The notes beneath the pieces were generated by a model. It saw only the letters and a program-made list of their open reading frames with translations, did no database searches and was not told the origin of the DNA. The position numbers were made by a program, and so were the translations under genes. Source: a virus. Taken from it: a stretch of DNA of 25,115 bases. Below are positions 521 through 24,980 of the stretch, in pieces (position 1 is the stretch's first letter; each line of letters opens with the position of its first letter). Where the stretch lies: IMG/VR virus record IMGVR_UViG_3300022929_000183, positions 1 to 25,115 of that record; one strand, 5' to 3'.

Positions 521-979
521 GTGTCCGATATAAACGTAGAAGACCCCCCTACAGAGGAAGATGAACAGGTCTTCAAAGCTCTTCCTGAACCTAAGAAGAA
601 AGTAGGAAGACCTAAAAAGAAGGACTTAGCAGCAAATACTCCAGGGAAGATGGCTAAACGGGGAAGACCCCTTGGTGAGGCTTCCGCAATGGCTGACTTT
701 AAAGCCCGGATCCTTACCTCGCCTAAGTCCAAGAAGGTTATAGAGAAGATCTTTGATGCTGCCTTGGATGACGATCATAAGTTCCAGTCAGCAGCATGGA
801 AGTTGATTGTGGATCGTATAGCGCCTATGTCCCAGTTTGATGTCGTAGGGGGTGGGAAGCCCACAGTAACGATCAACATATCAGGTCTTGCAGATAATGT
901 GTCTATCTCCTCCCAAGAGGATAAAACACCATTAGAAGGTGAATACGAGGAAGATTCAGAAGATGGAAATCAAGAATAA
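521..979 (+). CDS. terS: Terminase small subunit-like protein
   Basis: 152 aa with a GTG start at 521. An AAGG lies 8 nt upstream and an in-frame stop at 482-484 excludes a much longer form. The N-terminus is acidic, followed by two AT-hook-like basic GRP motifs (KKKVGRPKKKD near residues 26-36 and KRGRP near 46-50). A helical core follows with the pattern SPKSKKVIEKIFDAALDDDH and AAWKLIVDRIAPMSQF, then a short beta-like stretch PTVTINISGL and an acidic tail. In phages a small DNA-binding protein in this place marks the genome for packaging and hands it to TerL. The assignment rests on position two genes before TerL, size and DNA-binding character; no catalytic motif exists to confirm it. A lysozyme-like gene, unusually, separates it from TerL. 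Confidence 0.65.
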   Translation: MSDINVEDPPTEEDEQVFKALPEPKKKVGRPKKKDLAANTPGKMAKRGRPLGEASAMADFKARILTSPKSKKVIEKIFDAALDDDHKFQSAAWKLIVDRIAPMSQFDVVGGGKPTVTINISGLADNVSISSQEDKTPLEGEYEEDSEDGNQE

Positions 980-1451
980 GAAGAATGCAATAGCCGTCTA
1001 CGAACACCTTAACAAAGAAGTCCTCTTATCAAATAACATAATCATAGCTTTGATGGCTAACATAGCCGTAGAGACTGGTGGTACATTCGATTATGAGACT
1101 AAGCAGGTCGGTAGAGAAACCCCTGCCTATGGTCTTTTCCAGTTTGATCCCCTTGGCGGTATCTATGGTTTATACCAAGACTACCTGGGGTATGTTAGGG
1201 GGGATGATTCCGCAGAGCGCCAACTAGATATGCTCGTGGACATCTTCTTAATGTACTGGCCCAAGGGGGTTAACCATGTTGGTCGCGGAAACGTCAGGAA
1301 AGTCTTACGTGCCGCTCAAGAGAGTGCAGAAAAGGCTACAGAGGCTTTCTGCGACCACATATTAAGACCCGGTAAGCCCCACCTGGAACGGAGGCTTAGT
1401 GCGGTAAAAGACGTAAAGGCTTTGATTGAGGAAATCAATGGCCTCGCTTGA
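963..1451 (+). CDS. Lysozyme-like peptidoglycan hydrolase (candidate endolysin or virion lysin)
   Basis: 162 aa from ATG 963, overlapping the end of TerS by 17 bp. A GAGGAA about 10 nt upstream favours this start over the GTG at 939. The recognisable part is IALMANIAVETGGTFDYE followed by PAYGLFQFDPLGG (roughly residues 29-65). This resembles phage tail lysozyme and transglycosylase-type folds, where a Glu in a 'xxExGG' helix is catalytic and a 'GLFQF' strand follows; E39 would be the candidate acid. There is no signal peptide or membrane segment, so release would need a holin or delivery in the virion. It is the only cell-wall hydrolase candidate I see in the window. Its place between the two terminase subunits is atypical. 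Confidence 0.6.
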   Translation: MEIKNKKNAIAVYEHLNKEVLLSNNIIIALMANIAVETGGTFDYETKQVGRETPAYGLFQFDPLGGIYGLYQDYLGYVRGDDSAERQLDMLVDIFLMYWPKGVNHVGRGNVRKVLRAAQESAEKATEAFCDHILRPGKPHLERRLSAVKDVKALIEEINGLA

Positions 1452-2696: not shown

Positions 2697-4700
2697 ATGG
2701 ATAATTTCGACATAGACGATAAAGAAGACTTCACTAAGGAGCAGTCCCTCCAAGAGTGGGTAATGGAGAAGGTTGACGAGTGGCGGGAACACTACGATAA
2801 CAATTATAGGGCGCAACATGAGGAATATAACCGTATCTGGCGGGGCGTTTGGGCAGCAGGAGACAAGACCAGAGAGTCTGAGCGTTCGCGCCTCATCAGC
2901 CCTGCCACTCAGCAGGCTGTAGAGTCCTCCGTAGCAGAGATTGAAGAGGCTACGTTCGGCAGAGGCTCTTGGTTCGACATTGAAGATGATGTGCAGGACA
3001 CTGAACGGCTGGATGTGGAGTTTATTAAGAAAACCCTGCACCAAGACTTTAAGAAACAGAAAGTCCGTAAGTCGATTGCGGAATCCCTTATCGTATCGGC
3101 TGTGTACGGCACAGGTATCGCTGAAGTGGTCTTGGAGGACGTTAAAGAAATGTCCCCAGGCACTCAGCCAGTCATGGACGGGCAGCTTACTGCCGTTGGT
3201 GTAAACATCCAAGACCGCACAGTAGTCAAGATGCGGCCTATACTCCCCCAGAACTTCCTTATTGACCCTTCTGCGACTTGTATTGAAGAGGCTTTGGGGT
3301 GTGCTATTGATGAGTATGTACCAACGCACAGTATAGAAATCCTCCAAGAGAAAGGCGTATACAAGAAGATTAGCCTCTCCACCTCCGTCCACGACTTGGA
3401 CTTGGAAGAAGACCCTACTTTATCAGTTCCAGAGACTTATAAGACTCAAAAGACTACCTACTATGGCTTAGTGCCTCGCCATCTCCTCCTGAAAGCTCAA
3501 GAGGAAGAGGATGTAGAGGTAATCTCCCTCAGCGAAGACGATGAAGAATCCTCTTACTACGTTGAAGCTATTGTGATTCTCGCTAACGGTGGGGACCTCC
3601 TGAAAGCGGAAGAGAATCCGTTTATGATGCAGGACCGCCCTGTTATTGCTTTCCCTTGGGACATTGTACCTGGCCGTTTCTGGGGGAGAGGGATCTGCGA
3701 GAAGGGTTATAACAGTCAGAAAGCCTTGGATGCTGAACTGAGAGCGCGTCAGGACGCCTTAGCCTTGACTGTGCATCCCATGATCGGTATCGATTCTACC
3801 CGTATCCCACGAGGAATGACCACAGACGTGAGGCCCGGTAAGACGATTCTGACCATAGGCAGACCGTCAGAGATTATTGAACCTGTACGCTTAGGGGGTG
3901 TAGACCAAGTAACCTTTGCACAAGCGGAGGCGCTCCAGCGCATGCTTCAAATGGCTACTGGCGCGATTGACTCAGCAGGCATCCCCGGCAGTATCAACGG
4001 TGACGCTACCGCTGCAGGGATCTCTATGAGCCTTGGAGCGATCATCAAGCGGCACAAGCGCACCCTAATCAACTTCCAAGAGTCCTTCATTATCCCGTTT
4101 GTAGAAAAGGCTGCATGGCGTTATATGCAGTTTGACCCTGAGCACTACCCGGTCAGTGACTACAAGTTTGTTACTACCTCCTCTTTGGGTATTATTGCCC
4201 GTGAGTACGAGGTTACACAGCTTGTACAGCTTCTCCAAACTATGTCCCCAGACTCCCCCTTGTACCCTGCTCTGATTACCTCAATCATAGACAATATGAG
4301 CCTGTCTAACCGTGAGGAGCTTAAAGCCACGCTTGAGAAGGCTTCACAGCCCTCTCCAGAGCAGCAGCAGATGCAGCAGGCTACTTTCCAGGCAGAGCAA
4401 GCCTTCAAAGCCTCTCAGACCTCTGCCCTCGAAGGTCAGGCTTCTGAGTCTAACTCTAGAGCACAGAAGTACGCTGAAGAAACCCGCTTACTCCCTATGG
4501 AGCTTGAGGTCAAGAAGATTGAAGCGGCTACTAAGAACCTCCAGAATGGGAAGGCAGACGATCAGGAATTTGCCCGTAGGGTTAAGCTGGCAGAGATACT
4601 CCTGAAAGAGAGAGAAGTAGCCATCAAGGAGAAGGACACGGAGTTGAAAGGTAGGGATTCCGAGATGAGCCAGCAGGTTCTCACCCGTATAGGCGCATAA
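2697..4700 (+). CDS. Portal (head-to-tail connector) protein
   Basis: 667 aa, starting two bases after the TerL stop. It forms the dodecameric ring through which DNA enters and leaves the head. Evidence is position after TerL, length in the range of the longer podovirus portals, and portal-like segments: the N-terminal RLISPATQQAVESSVAEIEEATFG, the central PFPWDIVPGRFWGRGICE-type segment (VIAFPWDIVPGRFWGRG), and AQAEALQRMLQMATGAIDSAGI. The last 130 or so residues are rich in Gln, Glu and Lys and predicted helical or coiled-coil, resembling a barrel extension. No strong ribosome site is visible, so coupling to TerL translation is likely. It overlaps the next gene by one base (TAATG). Confidence 0.88.
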   Translation: MDNFDIDDKEDFTKEQSLQEWVMEKVDEWREHYDNNYRAQHEEYNRIWRGVWAAGDKTRESERSRLISPATQQAVESSVAEIEEATFGRGSWFDIEDDVQDTERLDVEFIKKTLHQDFKKQKVRKSIAESLIVSAVYGTGIAEVVLEDVKEMSPGTQPVMDGQLTAVGVNIQDRTVVKMRPILPQNFLIDPSATCIEEALGCAIDEYVPTHSIEILQEKGVYKKISLSTSVHDLDLEEDPTLSVPETYKTQKTTYYGLVPRHLLLKAQEEEDVEVISLSEDDEESSYYVEAIVILANGGDLLKAEENPFMMQDRPVIAFPWDIVPGRFWGRGICEKGYNSQKALDAELRARQDALALTVHPMIGIDSTRIPRGMTTDVRPGKTILTIGRPSEIIEPVRLGGVDQVTFAQAEALQRMLQMATGAIDSAGIPGSINGDATAAGISMSLGAIIKRHKRTLINFQESFIIPFVEKAAWRYMQFDPEHYPVSDYKFVTTSSLGIIAREYEVTQLVQLLQTMSPDSPLYPALITSIIDNMSLSNREELKATLEKASQPSPEQQQMQQATFQAEQAFKASQTSALEGQASESNSRAQKYAEETRLLPMELEVKKIEAATKNLQNGKADDQEFARRVKLAEILLKEREVAIKEKDTELKGRDSEMSQQVLTRIGA

Positions 4701-5359
4701 TGGACTACTACATCCCCCTACTCGCTTTAGACACAAAGCTAAAGAAGTCTATAGCCTCTCTTGAGAGCCGTATGAGCGCTATTAAGGCTCAGAAGGGCGA
4801 TCAAGGCCCCGTAGGAGCCTCTGGGAAGCCCGGTAAGGACGGTAAAGACGGGAAGCCAGGGAAGGATGGGCGGGACGGTAAGGATGGCGCTGTAGGGCCA
4901 CAGGGAGCCTCTGGAGAGCAAGGCGTAAGTATAGAGGACGTAAGCGTAGAGTTTGAAGGCTCGCTTATGGTAACCCTCTCTGACGGCAGGCAGATAGATG
5001 CCGGTAATGTCAGGCCATTATCGGAGGCGCTCGCCAACGAAGTACACGTAGCAATCTCAGGACGCTCTGCTAACGCAGCAGCAGCCGACTTAGGGGCTGC
5101 TACAGCCTTTACAGTAGCTGGAGACAAGACTACTGCAGGGCCTGAACTACTTAACGTGACTGCAGCGTGTACTATTACCTTAAATCCTACTCCCCAAGAT
5201 AGAGAAACAGTGGTCGTATCAGCCCAGACTACCGGGCAAGTAGACATCGTAGGGGCTTTTCTTCTAACGACAGGGGATACCACTATTTCTATAACAGCTC
5301 AGAACACAACGCTTATACTTATGTATGTAAATGCTTTTTCTAAATGGATGCTTATCTAA
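4700..5359 (+). CDS. Collagen-like virion fibre protein
   Basis: 219 aa. The order is a short helical, possibly trimerising segment (about 8-32), then 14 consecutive Gly-X-Y triplets (about 33-75) rich in GKD and GKP, then a beta-rich C-terminal domain (about 76-219). Collagen-like triplets in phage proteins form trimeric stalks in fibres and head decorations, so a trimer carrying a small head domain is expected. Starts at ATG 4700 overlapping the portal stop and ends in TAATG with the next gene. Its place in the portal-scaffold interval suggests a structural part. The exact location in the virion cannot be told from sequence. Confidence 0.75.
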   Translation: MDYYIPLLALDTKLKKSIASLESRMSAIKAQKGDQGPVGASGKPGKDGKDGKPGKDGRDGKDGAVGPQGASGEQGVSIEDVSVEFEGSLMVTLSDGRQIDAGNVRPLSEALANEVHVAISGRSANAAAADLGAATAFTVAGDKTTAGPELLNVTAACTITLNPTPQDRETVVVSAQTTGQVDIVGAFLLTTGDTTISITAQNTTLILMYVNAFSKWMLI

Positions 5360-8254: not shown

Positions 8255-9208
8255 ATGGCTACTTCAACATTCCCCACAATGACCGGCGCAGTAGGCTTGA
8301 CCGAAGCCGCAACTTTTGTACCTGAATTGTGGTCTGACGAGATCCGTGCATCTTACGAGAAGAACCTCGTACTGGCCCGACTCGTTAAGCGTTTGAGCAT
8401 GAAAGGCAAGAAAGGCGATACCATCAATATCCCTGCGCCTACTCGTGGTTCAGCATACGCTAAAGCCGAGAACACTGCAGTAACGCTCCAGAACGCAACT
8501 GAGAGCAACGTAGCAGTAGTTGTCGATAAGCATTACGAGTACTCACGCCTGATCGAGGATATTGTAAACGTACAGGCTTTGGACAGCCTGCGTCGCTTCT
8601 ACACCGAAGACGCTGGTTATGCCCTTGCTAAACAGATCGACAACGACCTGTTCGCGCTCGGCAAAAGCCTCGGTGACGGTAACGGGAGTGCGTGGGCACA
8701 CTCTGCCTCTTTCTTTCCAGACGCCTCTACTGGCTTGACCGCTTATGCGGTTGATACAGTGACTACTTCAGACGTCTTTACTGATGCTATCTTCCGTACA
8801 CTTATTCAGCAGATGGACGATGCTGACGTACCGATGGATAACCGTGTATATGTAATCCCGCCTTCGCTGCGGAATGCTATCATGGGTATTGATCGTTATG
8901 TGTCTAGCGACTTTGTTAATGGTCGTGGTGTACAGAACGGTAAAATCGGTGAGCTGTATGGCGTAGACATCTACGTTACCAGCAACTGCCCTGAAGTAGA
9001 ATCAGCCGGTGACAACTCCGCAGGAGATCGCTTGGTAGCCTCTATGCTGATGCATAAAGATACTTTGATCCTGGCAGAGCAGATGGGCATTCGCAGTCAG
9101 ACCCAGTACAAGCAGGAATACTTGGCTAACCTCTATACCGCAGATACCCTCTACGGTGTGAAGTCTTACCGTCCTGATTCAGGTTTTGTTCTGGTAGTAA
9201 ACGACTAA
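8255..9208 (+). CDS. Major capsid protein
   Basis: 317 aa with a strong TTAGGAGAT ribosome site. The N-terminus reads FVPELWSDEIRASYEKNLVLARLVKR, then KGDTINIPAP and DKHYEYSRLIEDIVNVQ, followed by a central AGYALAKQIDNDLFALGK helix; the C-terminal half has YVIPPSLRNAI and YGVDIYVTSNCP. These are familiar from HK97-fold coat proteins of podoviruses. Codon use is strict and GC-balanced, as expected of a very highly expressed gene. It is flanked by scaffold upstream and a terminator downstream, the classic arrangement. No N-terminal delta domain is visible; the separate scaffold replaces it. Confidence 0.92.
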   Translation: MATSTFPTMTGAVGLTEAATFVPELWSDEIRASYEKNLVLARLVKRLSMKGKKGDTINIPAPTRGSAYAKAENTAVTLQNATESNVAVVVDKHYEYSRLIEDIVNVQALDSLRRFYTEDAGYALAKQIDNDLFALGKSLGDGNGSAWAHSASFFPDASTGLTAYAVDTVTTSDVFTDAIFRTLIQQMDDADVPMDNRVYVIPPSLRNAIMGIDRYVSSDFVNGRGVQNGKIGELYGVDIYVTSNCPEVESAGDNSAGDRLVASMLMHKDTLILAEQMGIRSQTQYKQEYLANLYTADTLYGVKSYRPDSGFVLVVND

Positions 9209-9268: not shown

Positions 9269-10684
9269 ATGTCGGATTATACTAAAACTACTAACTTTAC
9301 CGCTAAGGACGCTCTTTCAACGGGTAACCCAGCAAAGATTATTAAAGGTGTAGACTTTGATACTGAGTTTACAGCTATCTCCGTGGCTATTGCCACCAAA
9401 CAGAACGCTTTTACTACTAGCTCTTCAGTAGCCGCTGCTGTGTCCGATGAGACCGGCTCAGGCGCTCTTGTGTTTGCTACCTCCCCCACTCTTGTAACCC
9501 CTGCTCTGGGTACTCCCTCAAGCGCTGTACTAACTAACGCTACAGGTTTGCCGCTGACTACAGGCGTAACAGGTACGCTTCCTGCCGCTAATGGTGGCAC
9601 AGGCGTAGCCTCCCTAGGGACAGGCGTAGCTACGTTCCTTGGCACACCTTCCAGCGCAAACCTCGCTGCTGCTGTGTCCGATGAAACAGGCTCAGGCGCT
9701 CTCGTATTTGCTACTTCGCCTACTCTAGTAACCCCTGCTCTGGGTACTCCAGCCTCAGGTGTACTCACTAACGCTACTGGTCTTCCTGTCAGCACGGGCA
9801 TTAGCGGCTTGGGTACCAACGTAGCCTCCTTTCTTGCAACGCCGTCAAGCGCCAATCTTGCCGCTGCCGTTACTAATGAAACCGGCTCAGGGGCTTTAGT
9901 GTTTGCAACAAGCCCTACTCTAGTAACGCCAGCACTAGGAACCCCCGCCTCCGGTGTACTCACCAACGCTACAGGGCTGCCTTTGTCTACAGGCGTTACA
10001 GGCACTCTTCCTGTTGCTAATGGCGGTACTGGAGCAACTACTCTCACGGCAAACAATGTCGTACTCGGTAATGGTACAAGTGCTGTTCAGTTGGTAGCTC
10101 CTGGCACTTCTGGCAATGTCCTTACCAGTAATGGAACTACTTGGGCTAGTTCTGCGGTTGAGACAGGGCTTGTTCTGCTCTCGACTGCTTCTGCTGCCAG
10201 TGACGCTACAGTTGATTTTACGGGTATCAGTTCTTCTTACGATGAATATGTCGTGGTCGGTCTCAACGTAATTCCCGCTACAGACGTTGTGGAGTTTCAC
10301 TGCCGAACATCCACGAACGGCGGGTCGACCTTTGACTCCGGAGTGTCAGACTACACATACCTGGCTAATTACAACCTCGGCACAGCATCGGGGGGGTCTC
10401 AAGGCACAAGCTCTCACATCATCCTGCAATATCAGTCCATCGGCAGCGATGTAAACGAGACAGGCGTATCTTTTGAAATGCGAATTGTCCGACCATCGGA
10501 GGCCACTTACACATCGGTCTACTGGCGCGGAATGAGCGTGAGCAGCACCACAGGGCAATTGTGTACGTTTGAAGGGTGCGCTAGGAGACTCTCTGCCGCA
10601 GATGTTGACGCTATCCGCTTCTACTTCAATTCAGGGAGTGTTGAGTCAGGGCTGTTCAAACTTTACGGGGTGAAAAAGGCATGA
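9269..10684 (+). CDS. Tail fibre protein with three repeated modules
   Basis: 471 aa. The N-terminus (MSDYTKTTNFTAKDALSTGN...GVDFDTEF, residues 1-45) matches the virion-anchoring end seen in many phage and prophage fibres. Then follow three copies of a Ser/Thr/Gly/Ala-rich module (about 53-102, 130-180, 195-244) with shared TGSGALVFATSPTLVTPALG and VLTNATGLP stretches, interleaved with TLPxANGGTG turns. Such repeats form the shaft of trimeric fibres. The C-terminal 170 residues are a different beta-rich domain, probably the receptor-binding tip. The repeats are also similar at DNA level, so copy-number change by recombination is plausible. A small partner gene follows with an ATGA overlap. 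Confidence 0.82.
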   Translation: MSDYTKTTNFTAKDALSTGNPAKIIKGVDFDTEFTAISVAIATKQNAFTTSSSVAAAVSDETGSGALVFATSPTLVTPALGTPSSAVLTNATGLPLTTGVTGTLPAANGGTGVASLGTGVATFLGTPSSANLAAAVSDETGSGALVFATSPTLVTPALGTPASGVLTNATGLPVSTGISGLGTNVASFLATPSSANLAAAVTNETGSGALVFATSPTLVTPALGTPASGVLTNATGLPLSTGVTGTLPVANGGTGATTLTANNVVLGNGTSAVQLVAPGTSGNVLTSNGTTWASSAVETGLVLLSTASAASDATVDFTGISSSYDEYVVVGLNVIPATDVVEFHCRTSTNGGSTFDSGVSDYTYLANYNLGTASGGSQGTSSHIILQYQSIGSDVNETGVSFEMRIVRPSEATYTSVYWRGMSVSSTTGQLCTFEGCARRLSAADVDAIRFYFNSGSVESGLFKLYGVKKA

Positions 10685-11004
10685 GCACAAAATTAGTTAA
10701 TGGCGAGCGTGTGCAAATGCAGCCAGCAGAGGTCGCATCATGGGAGGCATCCAAAGTAACAACGCCACATATCCCAACCTCTGTCACCGCTTTACAGGCT
10801 CTGCTCGCCATAGACGGCGCAGGACTTTCTGAAGCATACGAGGCATGGGCAAGCGATCCGGAGCGTACATTCGCGCAGAGAGCTTTTATCACTAAAGCCC
10901 TTATTTGGAATAGGTCGGATGAAGTACTAAACGAGGGAGCTACAGCCCTTGGCCTTACATCCGAACAGCTTGACCAATTATTTGTTGCAGCCTCCTCTCT
11001 ATAG
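10681..11004 (+). CDS. Small fibre-associated protein (possible fibre assembly or tail-end protein)
   Basis: 107 aa, joined to the fibre gene by an ATGA overlap. The mostly helical sequence has the features TALQALLAIDGAGLSEAYEAW, PERTFAQRAF and a C-terminal LGLTSEQLDQLFVAAS. I recall similar small proteins after fibre genes in many phages and prophages, often unnamed. The coupled position suggests a chaperone or assembly partner of the fibre. No motif proves this. Its stop codon lies inside the following terminator hairpin. Confidence 0.6.
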   Translation: MSTKLVNGERVQMQPAEVASWEASKVTTPHIPTSVTALQALLAIDGAGLSEAYEAWASDPERTFAQRAFITKALIWNRSDEVLNEGATALGLTSEQLDQLFVAASSL

Positions 11005-11012
11005 GAGGTTTT
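10991..11012 (+). terminator. Intrinsic terminator overlapping a stop codon
   Basis: CCTCCT (10991-10996) pairs with AGGAGG (11003-11008) around the loop CTCTAT, followed by TTTT. The stop codon of the upstream gene lies within the loop and stem. The right arm equals a perfect Shine-Dalgarno but no start codon with a real frame follows it. Confidence 0.7.
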
Positions 11013-11044
11013 GTACTTATTAAACTCTTAATTAAGGAATACAA

Positions 11045-11341
11045 ATGAGACTTGCTAAAGATAACAACGCAAACGCAATACAAGTAATGAAGCCTGTTTC
11101 CACAGAGAGGCTTGCTATTAGCTCTACAGCGGCCTCTGCCGCAGCTTTAGCGTCAGACACTACAGTAGTACGCATTGTAGCTAACCTCCCCTGTTTCTAC
11201 AGCGTAGACGGCACAGCTACTACATCGTCTACCTACCTCCCTGGTAGTGTTATGGAATACATCAGGATTGACTCTGGAGATACCCTCAGTGTCATTACAG
11301 AGAGTAGTTCCGGTTATGCTTGGATTTCGGAGATGATCTAA
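11045..11341 (+). CDS. Small beta-rich virion-associated protein, unknown
   Basis: 98 aa, with AAGGAA at good spacing from ATG 11045. Rich in Ala, Ser and Thr, with alternating strands (VVRIVANLPCFYSVDGTA, SVMEYIRIDSGDTLSVI) suggesting a compact beta domain. No signal peptide or membrane segment. It is the first gene after a terminator and is joined to the adhesin by TAATG, so it may be a base, cap or adaptor for it. I do not recognise a named family. Confidence 0.6.
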   Translation: MRLAKDNNANAIQVMKPVSTERLAISSTAASAAALASDTTVVRIVANLPCFYSVDGTATTSSTYLPGSVMEYIRIDSGDTLSVITESSSGYAWISEMI

Positions 11342-13830
11342 TGTTGGGACTACGTCTTAACAGGCTTGGCGCAGCTATACAGTCTTGGATTCCTGAGAAC
11401 CTCTTTGTAGGTGGCACAGCAGGTGCCCTCTACGACCTGGACCGCGCTGGATTAAATTTTAACACAACCGCAGGAGTCACAGAATCCACTGCCGCCGCCG
11501 ACCCTCTGGGCCTTCTGATCCCGGCCAATGGCGATGGGAGGGGGATTGTTAACCTTTTTGTAAATTCCAGTGGCATTGGTGAGTCTAGCTGGTTAAAAAC
11601 CCGAACGAGTGTATCTCAAACAAATCTGGCTAATCCTTTGACTGGCAGGAGTGATGGCTGCAAAGTGATGGAAACTGCGGATACTGGTGCGCACTATATC
11701 TATGCAGCAAGCGGTTTTTATACATATATAAGTGGTCAGCCATATATCATCGAAGCATGGGTAGAGGCAGCAGAACGCGATGAATTTGAAATCGTCTTGC
11801 CCGGTGGAGGCTTTGGGGTAAACAAAGAGGTTACCTTCAATCTGACTGACGAAACAACATCAACAGCAGACACAGGAATAACTTACGGCCTTGACAATCT
11901 CGGCAGCGGGTTATATCGGGCGTGGGTAGCAGGAACGGCAACTGCAACCGCATCAGCTAACACTATAGCTTTGCAGCTTCACGATGAAAATGGTGCTTCC
12001 TCATACACAGGCGACATCACCAAAGGCATATATGTTTACGGTTTGTCTCTTAGAAACGCTGCAACAACTGGCGAGTACCAAGCCAACGGCCCCTTACTCG
12101 GCGGCCCAGAACTCCCGATAGGGCAAGCCACTGCCGGTAGCAGGCCCAGTTTGGCGAGTTATCCGAGGGGTGGTAGAAGGAATCTGCTGACTTATTCTGA
12201 GGATTTCAGCAATGCAGTTTGGACTAAAACTGATACTACTTTAGCGTCCAGCGTATTGACTCAAGGGGCTGCTGGAACCGGGATACTTAGCTACTCGACA
12301 TCTATAACAGTGCCTGCCGGGAGCACAATTTCAGTAACTTTTTCAACTAAAAATGTATCTGGTGCAACTTGGATTAGACTCAGGGCGCTGGATGCATCGG
12401 CAGCTGATGGTGCTACTGCTTGGTTTAATCTTGATACAGGATCAGTAGGAACCACTGCGAGCACAGGCAGCGGAACCTATAGCGCGTCAACCATTACTGC
12501 AAATACGCAGGGAGGGTACGATATAACCCTAACTGCTGTTTTGCCGATTGGGCGAACTTCTGCAAAAATAGACGTTCTTATATCAGATGCTGACAACTCA
12601 AACACCAGAGCAAGCACCGTTCAGTACGGTGCTTATTTTGCACAACTTGAGGCTGGCAGTCCAACCGCATACCAAAAAGTAACCAGCAACTTCCTAGTCT
12701 CCGAAGCCGGACTCCCCTCAGTGCTCACAGCCTACCTTGATGGCGGCGATTACTGGAGTACCTACACGACTACTCTGGAGAACAAGGTTGATGGGAATGG
12801 GGTGGTTAATCTGCTGAAGTATACCAATAGGTTTAATATAAGCCCTTGGACTGGCACGGATACAACTATCACAGCAAATACTACTGCCGGGCCAGACGGG
12901 GAAGTTACCGCCGATACTCTTACAGAAGGAACTGCTGGAAACGCCAGTTGGTCGCAGACACTCAGCACTACAGACTCCGGTGATTTTACCGGGACAATAT
13001 CCGTAAAATACAATGGGACACAGTGGCGAGAACTGCATATAACAGACAGTGCTGGTAACACCTTGCGCTGCTGGTTTGATGTTTTGAATGGCGTTAATGG
13101 AGGAACGCCTGTTGTAGCTGGCACGGCAACTTATATAGACCAAACAATCACCGCTGAAGCAAATGGATTTTATCGCTGTACGCTTTCAGGGAACTTCCCC
13201 GGAGCTAGGACAACTTTGTCGTTATCCTCAATTTCAGCTGATGCGGATGCCAGCACTGTTAGGGTAAATAACGCCTCCTACTACTATGCAAACGCGCAAC
13301 TAAATGCTGGCGCTACTGCCCTTACTTACCAAGGCAACGATGCCACCCTCGGCGGCAGTGCTGGCAGTGCGAGCCTTGCCTGTGTGCCGGATCAGCAGTG
13401 GACTGTTGGGATTGGGTGGAGTTCTGTTTCTTCTGCGGCTCAGTACATTCTTGCAAAAGCATCGAGCAATGCTGCAACACACACACTTTCTATTTTGCTG
13501 GAGGGCGGCGTAATTAAGCCAAGAGTACACGGGACCCAGAGCACTGGGCCATCTGGTTTAGCTGATGGATTATTCAAGGCGGTCTTAATTGTGTGGGATG
13601 GCACAGATGCAGTCCTATACATGCGAGGGCACGACCCCCAATCGTTAAATATAGGAACAGCAGCGGAAGAAACATCAGAGCTAATAACAATCGGTTGCCG
13701 AACTTATACAAGCCCAGCAGTGTTTTTTGCTGGAACTGTTGACCCCCCTCTTTTACTGCCAAGAGCTATGACTGCATCCGAAGCTACCCAGTGGCTTAAT
13801 TTTATGAGTACATCTAAGGGGGTGGTGTAA
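11341..13830 (+). CDS. Large multi-domain adhesin with three carbohydrate-binding-like modules
   Basis: 829 aa. ATG 11341 has GGAG 8 nt upstream and forms TAATG with the preceding stop; the in-frame TTG at 11320 is less likely. After a short N-terminus (1-70) come three related modules (about 70-255, 285-455, 498-668). Each opens with NL(L/F) plus a Ser- or Thr-rich W-containing strand (NLLTYSEDFSNAVWTKTDTT in module two) and closes with a YAxxQLxAGxxxxxYQ-like strand. This pattern resembles carbohydrate-binding jelly-roll modules of phage tail proteins. The last 140 residues (WTVGIGWSS to the end) resemble a LamG/concanavalin-type sandwich. It probably binds host surface glycans. No hydrolase motif is seen. 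Base composition beyond about 11450 differs from the core virion genes. Confidence 0.72.
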   Translation: MLGLRLNRLGAAIQSWIPENLFVGGTAGALYDLDRAGLNFNTTAGVTESTAAADPLGLLIPANGDGRGIVNLFVNSSGIGESSWLKTRTSVSQTNLANPLTGRSDGCKVMETADTGAHYIYAASGFYTYISGQPYIIEAWVEAAERDEFEIVLPGGGFGVNKEVTFNLTDETTSTADTGITYGLDNLGSGLYRAWVAGTATATASANTIALQLHDENGASSYTGDITKGIYVYGLSLRNAATTGEYQANGPLLGGPELPIGQATAGSRPSLASYPRGGRRNLLTYSEDFSNAVWTKTDTTLASSVLTQGAAGTGILSYSTSITVPAGSTISVTFSTKNVSGATWIRLRALDASAADGATAWFNLDTGSVGTTASTGSGTYSASTITANTQGGYDITLTAVLPIGRTSAKIDVLISDADNSNTRASTVQYGAYFAQLEAGSPTAYQKVTSNFLVSEAGLPSVLTAYLDGGDYWSTYTTTLENKVDGNGVVNLLKYTNRFNISPWTGTDTTITANTTAGPDGEVTADTLTEGTAGNASWSQTLSTTDSGDFTGTISVKYNGTQWRELHITDSAGNTLRCWFDVLNGVNGGTPVVAGTATYIDQTITAEANGFYRCTLSGNFPGARTTLSLSSISADADASTVRVNNASYYYANAQLNAGATALTYQGNDATLGGSAGSASLACVPDQQWTVGIGWSSVSSAAQYILAKASSNAATHTLSILLEGGVIKPRVHGTQSTGPSGLADGLFKAVLIVWDGTDAVLYMRGHDPQSLNIGTAAEETSELITIGCRTYTSPAVFFAGTVDPPLLLPRAMTASEATQWLNFMSTSKGVV

Positions 13831-14273
13831 TGATAACTCTAATCGCAATAGCACCCACAACAATACTCCGTGACTGCAATGCCTTTGCCGCTATCCTCAG
13901 TGGTAACGCAGCCGACCTGCTCACATACCGCAATCCGAACAGAACCGACGCACTCGGTAACGAGTATTGCTGGGTGGCCGTACAAGTGCCTGCTGACTTT
14001 TTCAGTGAAACTATGGCGCTTGAAGGTTTGCCAGTACGTGACATCGTATGGGCTGAGCAGGTAGAAGTTACCCCTGCCAATCCTGAAACTGGTGAGCCTG
14101 CCGTATACGAAACTGTCGAGACTCCGCTTGATTACCAAGCTGCTGGTACGGTGCTCGCCACTATGAAAGTGTACTCAGGGCAAGAGGATTTCGTTATTGA
14201 TCCGACTTGTCTTACCGTGTCGATAACTGGTGAGCCTCCTGGTCTTACGGCTATTGTGGAGGACGGCGAGTGA
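13830..14273 (+). CDS. Hypothetical protein following the adhesin
   Basis: 147 aa, joined to the adhesin by TAATG and to the next gene by a GTGA overlap. Composition is beta-rich and acidic, with LGNEYCWVAVQVPADFF and TVETPLDYQAAGTVLATMKV. Only one region near the N-terminus is hydrophobic and it is not a clear signal peptide. Tight coupling on both sides suggests that it works with the adhesin or with the papain-like protein, for example as an assembly factor. No family recognised. Confidence 0.55.
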   Translation: MITLIAIAPTTILRDCNAFAAILSGNAADLLTYRNPNRTDALGNEYCWVAVQVPADFFSETMALEGLPVRDIVWAEQVEVTPANPETGEPAVYETVETPLDYQAAGTVLATMKVYSGQEDFVIDPTCLTVSITGEPPGLTAIVEDGE

Positions 14274-14986
14274 CCGAGATTGAGCAGTACATCTTGGACA
14301 ATGGCGGGTACGAAGGCACCTTGATAAAGCTACGCGCCCACCCAAAACGCAAGTTCAACAATATCACCAAGTACTGCCGTTACGCAAACGACCTGCAAAG
14401 CTGGGTGCTACGTGCCGGGGTCTCCACGCTGCTGGAGCTTGACTGGTATCTGAAAGGCGCAAACGCTGAGTGCCCTCCTGTGCCGTTCGCGCTGGAGAAC
14501 GCCGATCTGATTAAGTACAACGCCAATGACGGTTCTGGCGACTACCCAATTGATATAGGTACCTTGATCGCGCAGCAGTTCACCCGAGCTGTGGGACTGA
14601 AAGAAGTGCATAGCGATGCTTGGTACTGCAAGCTCACTCAGGAGCAAATCGAATGGCTGGCCGCTAACCATCCGGTGCTGAACTTGCCCTTTTCAGAAGA
14701 CGAGGCACAAGATTGTGACAATGCTCGCGGGGGTTTCAAAGGTTGGATGGACAACCAAGGCCGCAACAAAGCTGCAGTAGGCATGGTGAACACTCTACAC
14801 TACTGGGACGACACGTTTAAGTATGCCCACGCAGTCATGGTAGCCGTTCGCACTGATAACACATTGTGGCAGATCGACCCGTCAGCAAAAGGCTTAAGGG
14901 CTATACCGCACCCGCCCTCTTTCCCGAATGCTGGGCAGTATTTACCCGTAGCCAATAGAATCGAAATTTCTGGTATATTGTTTTAA
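14270..14986 (+). CDS. Papain-like (MOA/agglutinin C-terminal type) cysteine-peptidase-like protein
   Basis: 238 aa. GTG 14270 has GGAGG (14258-14262) at a 7-nt spacing, so this start is well supported. C149 in the context AQDCDNARGGFKGWM, H187 in KYAHAVMVAV and D203 in LWQIDPS are arranged as in the papain-like C-terminal domain of the fungal lectin MOA and its many phage relatives ('lectin MOA-related'), where Cys, His and an acidic or polar residue form the site. The N-terminal 140 residues are helical (residues 98-140 look like the preceding cap). Activity is unproven; the role could be peptide bond cleavage in the host envelope or structural use of the fold. GC-rich, CTG-biased codons set it apart from its right-hand neighbours. 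Confidence 0.55.
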   Translation: MTEIEQYILDNGGYEGTLIKLRAHPKRKFNNITKYCRYANDLQSWVLRAGVSTLLELDWYLKGANAECPPVPFALENADLIKYNANDGSGDYPIDIGTLIAQQFTRAVGLKEVHSDAWYCKLTQEQIEWLAANHPVLNLPFSEDEAQDCDNARGGFKGWMDNQGRNKAAVGMVNTLHYWDDTFKYAHAVMVAVRTDNTLWQIDPSAKGLRAIPHPPSFPNAGQYLPVANRIEISGILF

Positions 14987-15031
14987 CCAACCAGGACAGT
15001 AAAATATCACTCTAATTAAAAGGGCTTTATA

Positions 15032-15676
15032 GTGGTTCTTGATTTTCAATACTGGACAGAGTCCTTTACAGCCCTCGGGGGCCTTTCTTTAGCGGTTCTC
15101 CAATTCCTTTATGGAAAATATAAAGAACAGAAAGCTGATAAAGAGATTGCCAACTTAAACGCTGACTTGTCCCCTGGTTTCGAGATTATAATGACTGCTG
15201 AAAGATGGCAGTTAATAGACGAGACTCTTCAGCGTTTGATGGCCTCCACAGGGATTGACAGGGTTATTTTCTTTATTGCTAAAAACGGTGTAGGGGACCC
15301 CCGCAGAACATACGCCTTTATCCAGAAGCGAGACACCGGGGATCTCTGGTTCCACAGTTTCCAGAATGTGGCCTTGGATGACGATTACAAAATACGCTTG
15401 CGGGAATTGTTTTCTGTAGGGGTACATTCTATCCGAGACTGCACAGCCCTTTCTGTACTTACATTGATAGGGGGTATTTATGCTGAGGAGGGGGTACTCT
15501 CTTCATTTTGGGTAAAACTCCAGCGGTTCATGTCAGGCCCTAATGCATTCTACTGCTACTGCTCTTTCTCCTCGCACACTGGAGAAATATCCAATATAGA
15601 GAAGGTCCGATGTGCGGAAGCTGTAAGGATTATAACCCCTATAATTGAAAACTCTATTGTGTTTAATAAGGTGTAA
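15032..15676 (+). CDS. Membrane-anchored GAF-like domain protein
   Basis: 214 aa from GTG 15032, with AGGG about 9 nt upstream. A single hydrophobic segment (about 13-28, TALGGLSLAVLQFLYG) is followed by a charged coiled-coil-like linker (29-46). Then comes an alpha/beta domain (about 50-207) whose order and pattern resemble a GAF fold: helix ETLQRLMASTGIDRVIFFIAKNG, strands YAFIQKR and LWFHSFQNVAL, and a closing helix IEKVRCAEAVRIITPIIENS. Four cysteines (C137, C175, C177, C194) lie in the second half. GAF domains usually bind small ligands or sense redox state. In a late phage operon this could be a membrane sensor, superinfection factor or lysis regulator. The GAF call is by eye only. Confidence 0.5.
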   Translation: MVLDFQYWTESFTALGGLSLAVLQFLYGKYKEQKADKEIANLNADLSPGFEIIMTAERWQLIDETLQRLMASTGIDRVIFFIAKNGVGDPRRTYAFIQKRDTGDLWFHSFQNVALDDDYKIRLRELFSVGVHSIRDCTALSVLTLIGGIYAEEGVLSSFWVKLQRFMSGPNAFYCYCSFSSHTGEISNIEKVRCAEAVRIITPIIENSIVFNKV

Positions 15677-15679
15677 GCG

Positions 15680-16072
15680 ATGAAAGACCCCCGGACACTC
15701 CCCATCGCAGACCTCATCGTAGCCCCTGAGTCGTATAAGAATGCGGATACTGCTCTCCTCTTCTCTATCTGTAACGGCTGTGGCTCCTCACAGAGTAAGT
15801 TTGACTTAGTACCTGATACACTATACGGATTAGACATCTCACCAGCTTGTTTCCCTCACGACTGGGCTTATAAGTTTGGAAAGACTAAGCAGGATAAGCA
15901 ACAGGCTGATTTTGACTTCCTCCGTAATATGCTTACCTTGATAAACAACGATACAGGCTTTATAGGGATCATGTTGAGGATCCCTAGAAGGCGTAGAGCT
16001 TTGAAGTATTACGAAGCTGTAAACCGTTTTGGAGATAAGGCTTTCTGGGCTGGTAAGACACAAGTACGCTAA
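15680..16072 (+). CDS. Phospholipase A2-like protein
   Basis: 130 aa, AAGGTG just upstream of ATG 15680. CNGCGS (31-36) resembles a glycine-rich calcium loop. ACFPHDWAY (56-64) carries the HDxxY signature with H60, D61 and Y64. A second acidic position occurs in ADFDFLRN (D77/D79). This is the core pattern of secreted and parvovirus-type PLA2, which cleave the sn-2 ester of phospholipids with a His-Asp pair and calcium. The C-terminus is basic and helical (IPRRRRALKYYEAVNRFGDKAFW). There is no signal peptide, so it would act in the virion during entry or after lysis begins. It could alternatively be a non-catalytic relative. It sits between a membrane protein and a lipoprotein. Confidence 0.62.
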   Translation: MKDPRTLPIADLIVAPESYKNADTALLFSICNGCGSSQSKFDLVPDTLYGLDISPACFPHDWAYKFGKTKQDKQQADFDFLRNMLTLINNDTGFIGIMLRIPRRRRALKYYEAVNRFGDKAFWAGKTQVR

Positions 16073-16091
16073 ATCGACATAAGGACACATC

Positions 16092-16352
16092 ATGTACACT
16101 AAATCGCTTTTCTTAATCACGTTATTTGCACTAACAGCCTGTGGAGGTTGCAGTACATTCTCTCCTGAGTCCCTTGGCGTAAACGCTGACGATAACGCTT
16201 TCCAGTGTATTCGTGTAGAGCTGGATGGGTACTTTACAGACAGCAACGCCGGTACGGTTCGCTTTGAAGCACCAGGTAACCTGACTATTAAGGATCTAAG
16301 CCCTGAACAGATAATGGCACTTGATGCAATGGCTGAAAGGATGGGCTGCTAA
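16092..16352 (+). CDS. Small lipoprotein
   Basis: 86 aa, with AAGGA upstream. A lysine near the N-terminus, a hydrophobic stretch LFLITLFALTAC and a lipobox LTAC place the modified cysteine at 17; a second cysteine follows at 20. The residue after C17 is Gly, so outer-membrane sorting is expected. The mature part (about 70 residues) has two more Cys and strands around CIRVELDGYF and TVRFEAPG. It is not embedded in another reading frame, so it is not a classic Rz1. It could be a superinfection-exclusion lipoprotein or part of an envelope-acting set with the PLA2-like and membrane proteins; function is unproven. The stop is followed immediately by the GTG of the next gene. Confidence 0.68.
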   Translation: MYTKSLFLITLFALTACGGCSTFSPESLGVNADDNAFQCIRVELDGYFTDSNAGTVRFEAPGNLTIKDLSPEQIMALDAMAERMGC

Positions 16353-18005
16353 GTGGCGAGTACTGAACAGATCCTTGGTTGGCTACAGAAGAACCCCCAA
16401 GCTACTGATGCGGACATCTTCGCTATCATGCAGGCGAGTGGGACTACTCCTGAGCAGCTTGCACAGGCTACTGGTAAGCCTGTAGAGGCTGTCCAACAGC
16501 GTTACGATAACCAGTATGCCAACGCTCTTACTGTTCCTGTACCTACCGCGCCTCCAGCACTCTCTGGGCTACTCGCACAGCCCTCAAAGGCACAGCCGAC
16601 CCTGCCTACTAGCGCCATTCAGAGGGGAGCTGGTATTAATATAGGAGACTCCCTATTAAAAACTATACTAGGGAATGCCAATGTAGGACAGACTCCTGCG
16701 GATGCTGCAGCGGCTGCCGCTATCGATAGAGCTGCTGGGGCTGTTTTAGAAGCTGGCGGGAGTGCTGCGGCTGCAGAAGCGGCTGCTCAGGCAGCAGGGG
16801 CAGGCTTAAACGGGGGCCTCACATTAGATTTTAACCCTGCTACTATGCTCCTCACCAGCATGGCTAAGTTCATTAAAAGCAAGTGGGACAGCGCGGATGC
16901 CCGTCAGGAGGCTTATAAGCAGTGGAAAATAGCTAATAATGATGCAATAGCCGCTGCTGGTTTAGATGTTAATAGTAACAACACCCCTGAGGCTATGCTC
17001 TCTAGTTTGGGCGTTTCTGCTGAAAACGCAGCCGACCTAGACCCTACAGGTATCCTCAAAGAGATAGAGAGCCTTGGCGGGAGCCGCTATAACTTTCCTA
17101 GTGATATTTTTGGACCTTCTACAGTATCGGAACAGGCTCAAGCAGCTACTGGAGGCGCTACTCCACAGGGCTATAAAGAGATACCGGCTAGTCAAGCACC
17201 GCCCCAAGATGCCATAGAGGGAGTCTTTCAAGACACAGCAGGCGCTACCTGGGGATATGACGTACAAGGTAACAAGTGGAAGATAGCAAATGCTCCGGAG
17301 ATCGCCACTCTAGATAACTCCGGTGGCGGTGGTGGTGGCGGCGGGTCAGATAACGCTGCAGACACCACTATCGTTACAGGAGACCCTTCCTTATCAGGCG
17401 GGGACATCCCCACAGCTCCTGAGAAGCCCGTAGAAGGGGATACAGTAGTCACTAATGCTAACGCTAAGGGTAGGGAGGGTTCTACTATTGTGTGGACGCA
17501 TAGGAACCCTGACGGTTCCGTTGTAGCCTCTGATCCTATGGGTGAAATATGGGAAGTATCCCCTCCTACGGAAAAGCAAACGCCTGTAATCCCTACTATT
17601 ATTACCAGTACCGCAGGCCCCGCACAAGGCACGAGCACAGGAACAGGCCCCGGCACAGGCACTGGAGGGACCGGCACAGGCACTGGAGGGACTGGTACAG
17701 GCACTGGAGGGACCGGCACAGGCACTAGCACGGCTGACTCCGGAACTACCCCTGACTCTCCTGTGATGGTAGGTACTATACCCGCTACAGGCACTACTCC
17801 AGACCCCGGCACTACTACTGGAACAGGCCCCGGAACAGGTCCCGGAACAGGTCCCGATACAGGAGGCGCTAAAGGAGGAATGTTCGGATTAGGAGCTACT
17901 GAGACTACTCAGATGGTTTTCCCAGAGCTATACAAACTTTCTTCCACGCCTTACACACTTGTTGGGAACCTGCTCTCCCGCCCTAACAGAGGATTATTTT
18001 CTTGA
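16353..18005 (+). CDS. Gly/Thr/Pro-rich virion protein of unknown function
   Basis: 550 aa with a GTG start directly after the previous stop. Residues 1-55 form helices ([41 protein letters not shown]) of a type common in podoviral internal or tail proteins. Residues 110-150 are Ala-rich and may be amphipathic. A run of Gly occurs near 325-333. The segment from about 430 to 500 is low-complexity GTG/GPGTG repeat. The last 45 residues ([18 protein letters not shown]...) form a separate motif. It precedes the adaptor gene and overlaps its TTG start (TTGA). A virion protein with flexible linkers is likely. Confidence 0.6.
17652..17727. repeat. 21-bp tandem repeat encoding GTGTGGT
   Basis: About 3.6 copies of a 21-bp unit occur head to tail inside the Gly/Thr-rich gene, each unit encoding seven residues (GTGTGGT). 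Copies differ by only a few third-position changes. A shorter 12-bp repeat encoding GPGT follows near 17822-17855. Because the unit is a multiple of three, slippage would change length without breaking the frame. Confidence 0.8.
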
Positions 18006-18649
18006 CTTACTTACAGTTTATCAATCAGGTATTAGTAAGGATGCGTGAGAGTGAGGTGCTTACTCCTACGGATACCTCTTACTCCTCTCTCGTGGGCTTA
18101 CTCGTTAACGATGCTAAAAAGATGGTAGAGACTGCTTGGGACTGGGCAGGTCTCCGGAGTACCTTGACAGTATCCGCTACCTCAGGAACTAATGAGTACA
18201 CTCTCACAGGAAGCGGATTCGCCTATAAGTTCTTGGACGCTTACAACGATACTCAAGATACCCGCCTAGCGCTAACCACTCAGAATGATATGAACACCAA
18301 GATCAAACTGAATACAGCAGCCTCTGCGGCTCCTTATATGTTTAGCCTTAATGGCTTAGACAGTGCAGGGGATCAAAAGATTATTGTGTATCCCACTCCA
18401 GATGCGAGTTACACCTTGCGTTTCGATTGTGTAGTCCGTGAAGCTGATATGTCAGCCGCCGCAGACACTACAGCGCTCCCTTCACAGCCTATTGTGCTGT
18501 ACGCATGGGCGTTAGCGTCACGCGAAAGGGGCGAGACCGGAGGCACATCAGCTCAGGAGCTATTCGCTTTAGCAGACCGTTCCTTGGCAGACTCTATCTC
18601 CTTGGAAGCTCATAAGTATGCAGCGGAACTTACCTGGAGAGTTAACTAA
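18002..18649 (+). CDS. Tail adaptor / tail tubular protein A-like
   Basis: 215 aa. The TTG start at 18002 is chosen because AGAGGA (17988-17993) lies 8 nt upstream and the translated [18 protein letters not shown] matches the conserved N-terminus of the T7 gp11 family. The next in-frame ATG at 18041 would delete it. [18 protein letters not shown] is also typical. These proteins form the ring under the portal and gate DNA. Helices at the start are followed by beta strands ([15 protein letters not shown]). The start overlaps the previous stop (TTGA) and the end forms TAATG with the next gene. Length is close to T7 gp11. Confidence 0.8.
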
Positions 18650-24376: not shown

Positions 24377-24418
24377 GCCCTCTTTGTTTCCTCTAACGGG
24401 GAACTGAGGGCTTCTTTT
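24377..24418 (+). terminator. Intrinsic terminator for the late block
   Basis: GCCCTC (24377-24382) pairs with GAGGGC (24406-24411). An inner stem GTTTCC/GGGAAC (one G-U) stacks within it. TTCTTTT follows. The U-run overlaps the stop codon (24417-24419) of the convergent HNH gene, so the junction is compact: each strand's terminator touches the other strand's stop. Confidence 0.75.
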
Positions 24419-24980
24419 ATTCTCTCCCGTGGTTCTCGTGGTAGCCGTACTTCTCATTAGCGGCTGCTCTCGCGGCTGCTGCTTCCTCTAGAGTAGCAAA
24501 GAACCCAAGATGGGTATTCTTCCCATTAACAGAAATCGTTACTCGCCACCTACGCCCTATTTGGCGAACTCCCAAAACTCCTGATCTATTGTTTTTATAT
24601 CTACGTGAGTTTTTCTGGTTCTCTGCGTTGGTACACTCTCTCAAGTTTTCCCATCTGTCATCTGAAGGGTCTCCGTTGATGTGGTCTATCACATTAGGCC
24701 ACCGGCCTTCCTGAAAGGCAAAAGCCAGCCGCGAAGCCTTTATAAGATGAGCAGTACCCGCGCTTTTAATACGAATTAGCCACCTTCCGTGGGTTTTGCA
24801 AAAACACCCAGCTCTGCCTTTTTTCCTCCTGGCTTGGGGAATCTTCCAAGTAAACACCCCAGTCTCTGGATCGTATGCCAAATGCTCCTTGAGATACTCT
24901 ATCGGGGGCGGTTCTCTATTACGCCGTTGTTGTAGTTCAAAACCCGCTAAAGCACTTTCTACTTCGTCTTTATCGAACAT
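24417..24980 (-). CDS. HNH homing endonuclease-type protein with AP2 domain
   Basis: 187 aa. The central HNH region (about 93-124) reads WPNVIDHINGDPSDDRWENLRECTNAENQKN, with DHINGD (catalytic-type D99 and H100) and the following N...N...N spacing. A C-terminal AP2-type DNA-binding module (about 133-181) shows SGVLGVRQIGRRWRVTISV, HLGFFATLEEAAAAR and KYGYHENHGR. The N-terminal segment YDPETGVFTWK is typical of the family. Free-standing enzymes of this kind nick or cut a recognition site and spread their own gene. AGGGGG lies 6 nt before ATG 24980 on the minus strand. It follows the DUF3310 gene by nine bases. No intron signature can be seen here. Both domains look intact. Confidence 0.88.
   Translation of the reverse strand: MFDKDEVESALAGFELQQRRNREPPPIEYLKEHLAYDPETGVFTWKIPQARRKKGRAGCFCKTHGRWLIRIKSAGTAHLIKASRLAFAFQEGRWPNVIDHINGDPSDDRWENLRECTNAENQKNSRRYKNNRSGVLGVRQIGRRWRVTISVNGKNTHLGFFATLEEAAAARAAANEKYGYHENHGRE

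Follow-up and report, generated by a model that had tools for sequence, protein, structure and literature searches.

Between the capsid and head-tail adaptor genes of an uncultured podovirus-like phage, represented by a 25,115-base fragment (hereafter the window), a stretch of nine open reading frames (ORFs) at positions 9269 to 16352 encodes a prokaryotic-type phospholipase A2 (PLA2)-like protein next to a lipoprotein. The stretch is composite: block 1 (9269-14273) is a receptor-binding array, and block 2 (14270-16352), which holds the PLA2, is a variable slot that relatives can occupy with lysis genes. Because the PLA2 has no signal peptide, because the Ca2+ and redox conditions expected to suit it are those found outside the cytoplasm, and because of the genes that surround such enzymes in this slot and elsewhere, we favour, with confidence slightly short of even, the reading that it was recruited to the lysis slot and would be released at lysis, with the lipoprotein as its envelope partner. 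Some phages may thus use a membrane-digesting enzyme toward breaking out of the cell.

The PLA2 family and its gene neighbourhoods

A first-pass annotation of this DNA had called the protein PLA2-like, and both profile and fold comparisons bear this out. In an alignment of 31 diverse phage members of the family, N32-G33-C34-G35, C57 and H60-D61 are invariant, and Y64 and D77 are nearly so. Searches with the family profile (hmmsearch) matched solved PLA2s, namely, the Streptomyces enzyme 1faz (E = 2.1e-7), 4aup, 7ygk and 8k1w. An AlphaFold2 (AF2) model built with a 30-member alignment reached a pLDDT of 90.4, and its first five Foldseek matches in the PDB were all secreted PLA2s (probability 0.85-1.0; TM-score 0.44-0.58); the E-values are modest (best 4e-3), but the PLA2 fold is without a competitor. 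With the group XIV/XIII secreted PLA2s (Streptomyces violaceoruber 1faz, Tuber borchii 4aup; PF09056) the phage protein shares, beyond these profile and fold matches, the His-Asp dyad in a C..HD..Y context, the Cys-Gly loop ahead of the dyad and a helical core. It differs from them in being phage-borne and without a signal peptide, in its conserved motifs (CNGCG, VPDT and, at the C terminus, FGGxAFW), and in falling below the Pfam cut-off when scored as a single sequence.

A hydrophobic N terminus is missing in 30 of the 31 family members, as in holin-dependent endolysins; canonical endolysins likewise have no signal peptide. To act on its substrate from outside, the PLA2 would therefore need either a holin-type breach or packaging in the virion. 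Homologous PLA2s require Ca2+, and by analogy the phage protein is probably Ca2+-dependent as well, while the invariant pair C34 and C57 points to a disulphide. Judging from the enzyme family, both requirements would be badly served in the cytoplasm and well served in the periplasm or in sea water. A distant group XIV homologue with demonstrated activity, the TtaP/DUF1353 PLA2, remains with the cell that produces it (PMC11525133); the window protein differs in being unmatched by DUF1353 in Pfam and in having no toxin islet.

Scans of IMG/VR and GTDB genomes yielded 72 PLA2 loci, 64 after removal of near-duplicates. Across the 72 loci, the adjacency of PLA2 and lipoprotein is the only association from the block 2 gene set that recurs. 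With lipoproteins called by a regular expression, a lipobox gene lies directly beside the PLA2 gene in 15 of 114 same-strand slots, as against 9 of 1,209 slots farther off (odds ratio 20; Fisher p = 3e-11), and a wider search for starts places an adjacent lipoprotein gene in 19 of the 64 loci. At least two lipoprotein families recur directly downstream of phage PLA2 genes (one in loci L089, L104, L132 and L134, the other in L110, L111, L116 and L149), and we found no published description of either. Peptidoglycan hydrolases are also frequent nearby, with about 21 of the 177 proteins within two genes on either side belonging to such families (Amidase_3, GH108, Amidase_2, M15, lysozyme and DUF5675; M15_4 and PG_binding_3 were excluded against double counting), as against at least 1 of 145 control genes five to nine places away. 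The clearest case is locus L123, with the order two-transmembrane (TM) holin-like gene, Rz-like gene, overlapping Rz1-like lipoprotein gene, PLA2 and M15 endolysin, where the holin, Rz and Rz1 names are read from size, TM segments and lipobox. In Vibrio phage 1.097.O, lipoprotein and PLA2 genes stand together between TerL and a head-completion adaptor.

A variable slot between capsid and adaptor

The first-pass annotation regarded the stretch as exceptional on the ground that podoviruses usually pass straight from capsid to adaptor. For this clade that is wrong. In a sample of 80 IMG/VR loci with major capsid proteins (MCPs) 58-79% identical, genes were mapped from MCP to adaptor, and in 12 of the 12 loci holding both genes the intervening DNA measures 4,432 to 8,164 bases, as against 8,794 in the window. 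The rule may apply to the distant isolates HMO-2011, HTVC033P and phiM6, in which about 0.5 kb separates the MCP from the next longer genes. The stretch is a clade-typical variable region and no odd 7-kb insertion, which corrects the idea of an unusual post-capsid insertion in this clade.

Most relatives follow a common plan, in which one or two long fibre genes directly 3' of the MCP are followed by small fibre-associated ORFs, then by small membrane or lysis genes, in many cases by a gene for a long low-complexity protein, and finally by the adaptor; in some, the fibre has the same N-terminal anchor as that of the window. The slot just before the adaptor side contains a GTA_holin_3TM gene in L005, L083 and L058 and a GH24 lysozyme (Phage_lysozyme) in L046. 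In L005, the closest relative, both flanks are as in the window, and a holin-type gene set stands in place of the papain-like, GAF-like, PLA2 and lipoprotein genes. None of these four is present in the 12 spanning relatives, and a nucleotide search of phages with 14200-16352 gave no match. The slot in relatives also houses a small one-TM coiled-coil protein. As a separate observation, a conserved 73- to 77-aa protein (MDYQ..F....GG...) with a hydrophobic N-terminal stretch and a coiled coil occurs there (L005:15986-16207, L046:10643-10864 and L035:4945-5178), the L046 member, the one scanned, having no Pfam match.

In the window itself, which covers the structural half of the phage, the genes run in the order PF18013 lysozyme (939-1451), TerL (1426), portal (2697), collagen-like fibre (4700), scaffold (7431) and MCP (8255-9208), followed by the nine ORFs, p16353 (16353), the SU10-type adaptor (18002) and more tail/internal genes. 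All nine ORFs are real, stand at the coordinates first given for them and are tightly packed on the + strand, where neighbours either overlap by 1 to 4 nt (4, 1, 1, 4) or leave gaps that range from 0 to 45 nt; those flanking the PLA2 and lipoprotein genes are 3, 19 and 0 nt.

Possible roles of the PLA2

As a lysis accessory, the PLA2 would build up in the cytoplasm in an inactive state, with Ca2+ low and the conserved Cys pair reduced. A breach of the inner membrane as infection ends would expose it to Ca2+ and the oxidizing periplasm, and it could then hydrolyse phospholipids, aiding the 939-1451 endolysin in breaking down the envelope. The lipoprotein might tether, position or restrain it at the outer membrane, or be an o-spanin-like part. 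A bolder version, to which we give little credence, is that a phospholipase-based module replaces the holin genes of relatives, such that the first influx of Ca2+ (at sea-water level) would activate a PLA2 until then silenced in the cytoplasm and held or aimed by the outer-membrane lipoprotein, and would make membrane collapse self-amplifying; the PLA2-lipoprotein pair would then be a widespread, unnamed lysis accessory among phages that infect Gram-negative bacteria.

Lysis by Gram-negative phages is described in terms of holin, endolysin and spanin. Set against this canonical cassette (holin, endolysin, inner- and outer-membrane spanins), the window has an endolysin, outside the slot, and a lipoprotein, and neither a holin nor an i-spanin was found in it. 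The GTA_holin_3TM lysis cassette of relatives shares the slot and its flanking genes, but the window has a PLA2 and a lipoprotein there and no recognizable holin. The nearest functional parallel is phage WO, for which a patatin-based lytic cassette has been proposed (PMC9203015), in which a phospholipase has a small membrane protein and the tail module as neighbours; patatin, however, is an unrelated enzyme family, and the WO scheme is equally a proposal. In the open-access literature searched, this is the only proposal we found that counts a membrane-lipid hydrolase among the regular lysis proteins, and we found there no description of the present PLA2 family in lysis neighbourhoods or of its lipoprotein partner; every piece has known relatives. 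A PLA2-lipoprotein pair that recurs beside endolysins, across many phages and prophages unrelated to one another, would make lipid-hydrolase lysis testable with small, expressible proteins.

Several observations weigh against a role in lysis. No holin is recognizable in the window, which is a fragment, and the only plausible TM segment in the slot is the signal of the lipoprotein; an i-spanin-like partner for the lipoprotein was likewise not found in this fragment, and the endolysin lies away from the slot. The window lipoprotein is dissimilar to the other PLA2-linked lipoproteins and belongs to neither recurrent family. The PLA2 loci are phylogenetically non-independent, and the control for the hydrolase count covers the 25 families listed for those 145 genes, which makes it a lower bound. 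In P2-like prophages (L114-L119, L145 and L148), tail-fibre-assembly-like genes and sheath/tube genes flank the PLA2 gene, which in some cases has a Dam (D12 adenine) methylase for a neighbour, in what resembles a cargo slot. Of 30 family members, 16 match the PHROG family phrog_1158, which is labelled "tail assembly chaperone", and as a single sequence the window PLA2 scores 14.6 bits with PF09056, under the gathering cut-off of 29.4.

Other roles account for some of these facts. The capsid of parvoviruses carries a PLA2, and a virion-borne PLA2, together with the cysteine-peptidase candidate of block 2, might open the membrane during DNA delivery. The position among virion genes, adjoining the spike/fibre array, would fit, as would the missing signal peptide, which is compatible with packaging, and the position of the Vibrio phage 1.097.O gene. 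We nonetheless consider such an entry role unlikely, though hardly far-fetched, in that no virion-targeting domain was seen, the PLA2 neighbourhoods of other phages are enriched in endolysins and lipoproteins, and all 12 close relatives without a PLA2 evidently still infect. Nearly the same low probability attaches to the possibility that the PLA2 is a cargo effector that harms the membranes of competitors or of the superinfected cell, with the lipoprotein as its antidote. Type VI secretion system (T6SS) Tle phospholipases do pair with Tli lipoproteins, such as Tli3, an outer-membrane lipoprotein that neutralizes a phospholipase (PMC9860674), and the recurrent adjacency, in which two or more unrelated lipoprotein families take part, and the cargo-like position in P2-like prophages both point the same way. 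Yet the window PLA2 resembles group XIV enzymes, the window yielded no T6SS genes, neither a delivery system nor a signal peptide is present, a recognizable adjacent lipoprotein is found in only about 30% of PLA2 loci, and the window lipoprotein has no significant match to a T6SS-immunity model (E = 0.1).

A use of the PLA2 fold in tail or fibre assembly, as a chaperone that lacks catalysis or makes no use of it, would agree with the phrog_1158 label and with the frequent placement of the gene after fibre genes. We regard it as improbable: the H-D dyad and the N-G-C-G loop, which a chaperone would not need, are invariant in the 31 members, and PHROG names mirror annotation rather than tests. 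Least probable of all is the proposal of the first-pass annotation that all nine genes form a single co-adapted module for adsorption, entry or superinfection control. Tight packing on one strand speaks for it, but the full set occurs in no other locus and the genes at the same place in relatives are unrelated. By the refuting condition that the first-pass annotation had itself set, homologues found singly or folds missing, the four-gene set of block 2 falls and the PLA2-lipoprotein pair stands. The label of envelope attack is supported for one gene, the PLA2, and through the location in the lysis-gene slot of relatives; the adsorption half of the label stands on a fibre with a clade-shared N terminus and a protein with three GTA-spike domains.

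Receptor-binding array and other genes of the window

Block 1, judged from its domains, is expected to make a receptor-binding apparatus that would bind host surface polysaccharide. The N terminus and repeat region of its fibre are 59% identical to those of the L005 fibre, which holds the same position. The internal repeats (SPTLVTPALGTP...LTNATGLP...) give several alignments with that fibre, and this suggests that repeat number varies. The head spike fibre of RcGTA binds capsular polysaccharide (PMC10218006), and its domain, NF048003 (GTA_spike_fiber), is matched in three stretches of the 836-aa window protein (182.6 bits, where the cut-off is 36), one module also resembling Rhodobacter phage tail proteins (RcapMu/RcWaterboi, 31%). 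The first-pass description of a three-module glycan-binding adhesin thus had the anatomy right and probably the function too, for a domain that was already known. The window protein differs from the RcGTA fibre in being of podovirus type and in having three domains in one chain. Its gene probably starts at ATG 11341, with a 1-nt overlap with the upstream stop, in preference to the annotated TTG 11320.

Features of the nine-ORF stretch and of neighbouring genes in the window
Feature	Coordinates	Strand	Evidence and remarks
Endolysin-like Phage_lysozyme2 (PF18013)	939..1451	+	E 4.2e-9, above cut-off; outside the stretch, flanked by a TerS-like gene and TerL
Fibre; N-terminal anchor shared within the clade, internal repeats	9269..10684	+	C terminus matches phrog_14820, E 2.6e-16
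Small ORF behind fibre	10681..11004	+	phrog_6034, E 3.9e-10 (function not assigned); fibre-assembly-like, as inferred from position
98-aa accessory ORF	11045..11341	+	43% identity to an L015 ORF, sole clade relative
Protein with three GTA head-spike-fibre domains, 836 aa	11341..13830	+	NF048003, E 9.9e-54
147-aa ORF, possibly fibre-associated	13830..14273	+	No family match; 1-nt and 4-nt overlaps with neighbours
Papain/transglutaminase-like cysteine-peptidase candidate	14270..14986	+	C149, H187, D203; spacings of 38 and 16 residues
Orphan 214-aa protein ("GAF-like membrane protein")	15032..15676	+	Weak match to phrog_29276, E 1.2e-4
Prokaryotic-type PLA2-like protein without signal peptide	15680..16072	+	H60-D61 dyad and N-G-C-G loop; profile and fold
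86-aa lipoprotein adjoining PLA2	16092..16352	+	Lipobox LTAC (MYTKSLFLITLFALTAC), K4, hydrophobic core
p16353, downstream edge of slot	16353..18005	+	Two ends 47% and 39% identical to L005 equivalent
SU10-type head-tail adaptor, downstream anchor of comparison	18002..18649	+	PF24175, E 2.2e-12; 62% to L005

Among the remaining products of block 2, the lipoprotein named by the first-pass annotation has a clean lipobox; it found no match in a search of 50,697 phages. The papain-like call reduces to a Cys-His-Asp pattern, whose spacing resembles the LapG/transglutaminase-like arrangement but which finds no database support. Profile searches of Pfam, NCBIfam and the PDB gave no significant family match; cruzipain was rejected as a relative (E = 0.24), the alignment ending at residue 188 and leaving D203 uncovered. 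A regular expression for the Cys-His-Asp motif picked out no partner gene in any locus, and the protein was found in none of 399 genomes.

The call of a GAF-like membrane protein fared no better, for neither Pfam nor NCBIfam gave a GAF profile match at E ≤ 1, no PDB match was obtained, and a single-sequence AF2 model (no alignment) had a pLDDT of 44, too poor to use, with no GAF among its PDB fold matches. The membrane part of the name is marginal, the best N-terminal 19-mer having a mean hydropathy of 1.09, under the usual TM threshold. To the eye this N terminus resembles the small one-TM protein of relatives, a likeness that we rejected after a profile search (E = 0.5). The family phrog_29276, sought in sets of 40 records and of 15 and 399 genomes, was matched in the window alone. 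For the papain-like and GAF-like proteins together, single-protein scans of IMG/VR recovered only a near-identical contig (L002), and tblastn against 50,697 phages gave nothing beyond chance even at E = 10.

Outside the stretch, the PF18013 endolysin is shared with L005 only among the clade loci, so that the endolysin, too, is mobile within the clade. A collagen-like (GXY) fibre at 4700-5359, between portal and scaffold, has counterparts in few relatives (L012, L083, L053 and L070). An HNH endonuclease gene lies on the − strand at the end of the window (24417-24980; phrog_99, E = 1.6e-61), and an HNH-like gene is found within the L005 slot (L005:16207-16641); given these two positions, homing may help reshuffle these slots.

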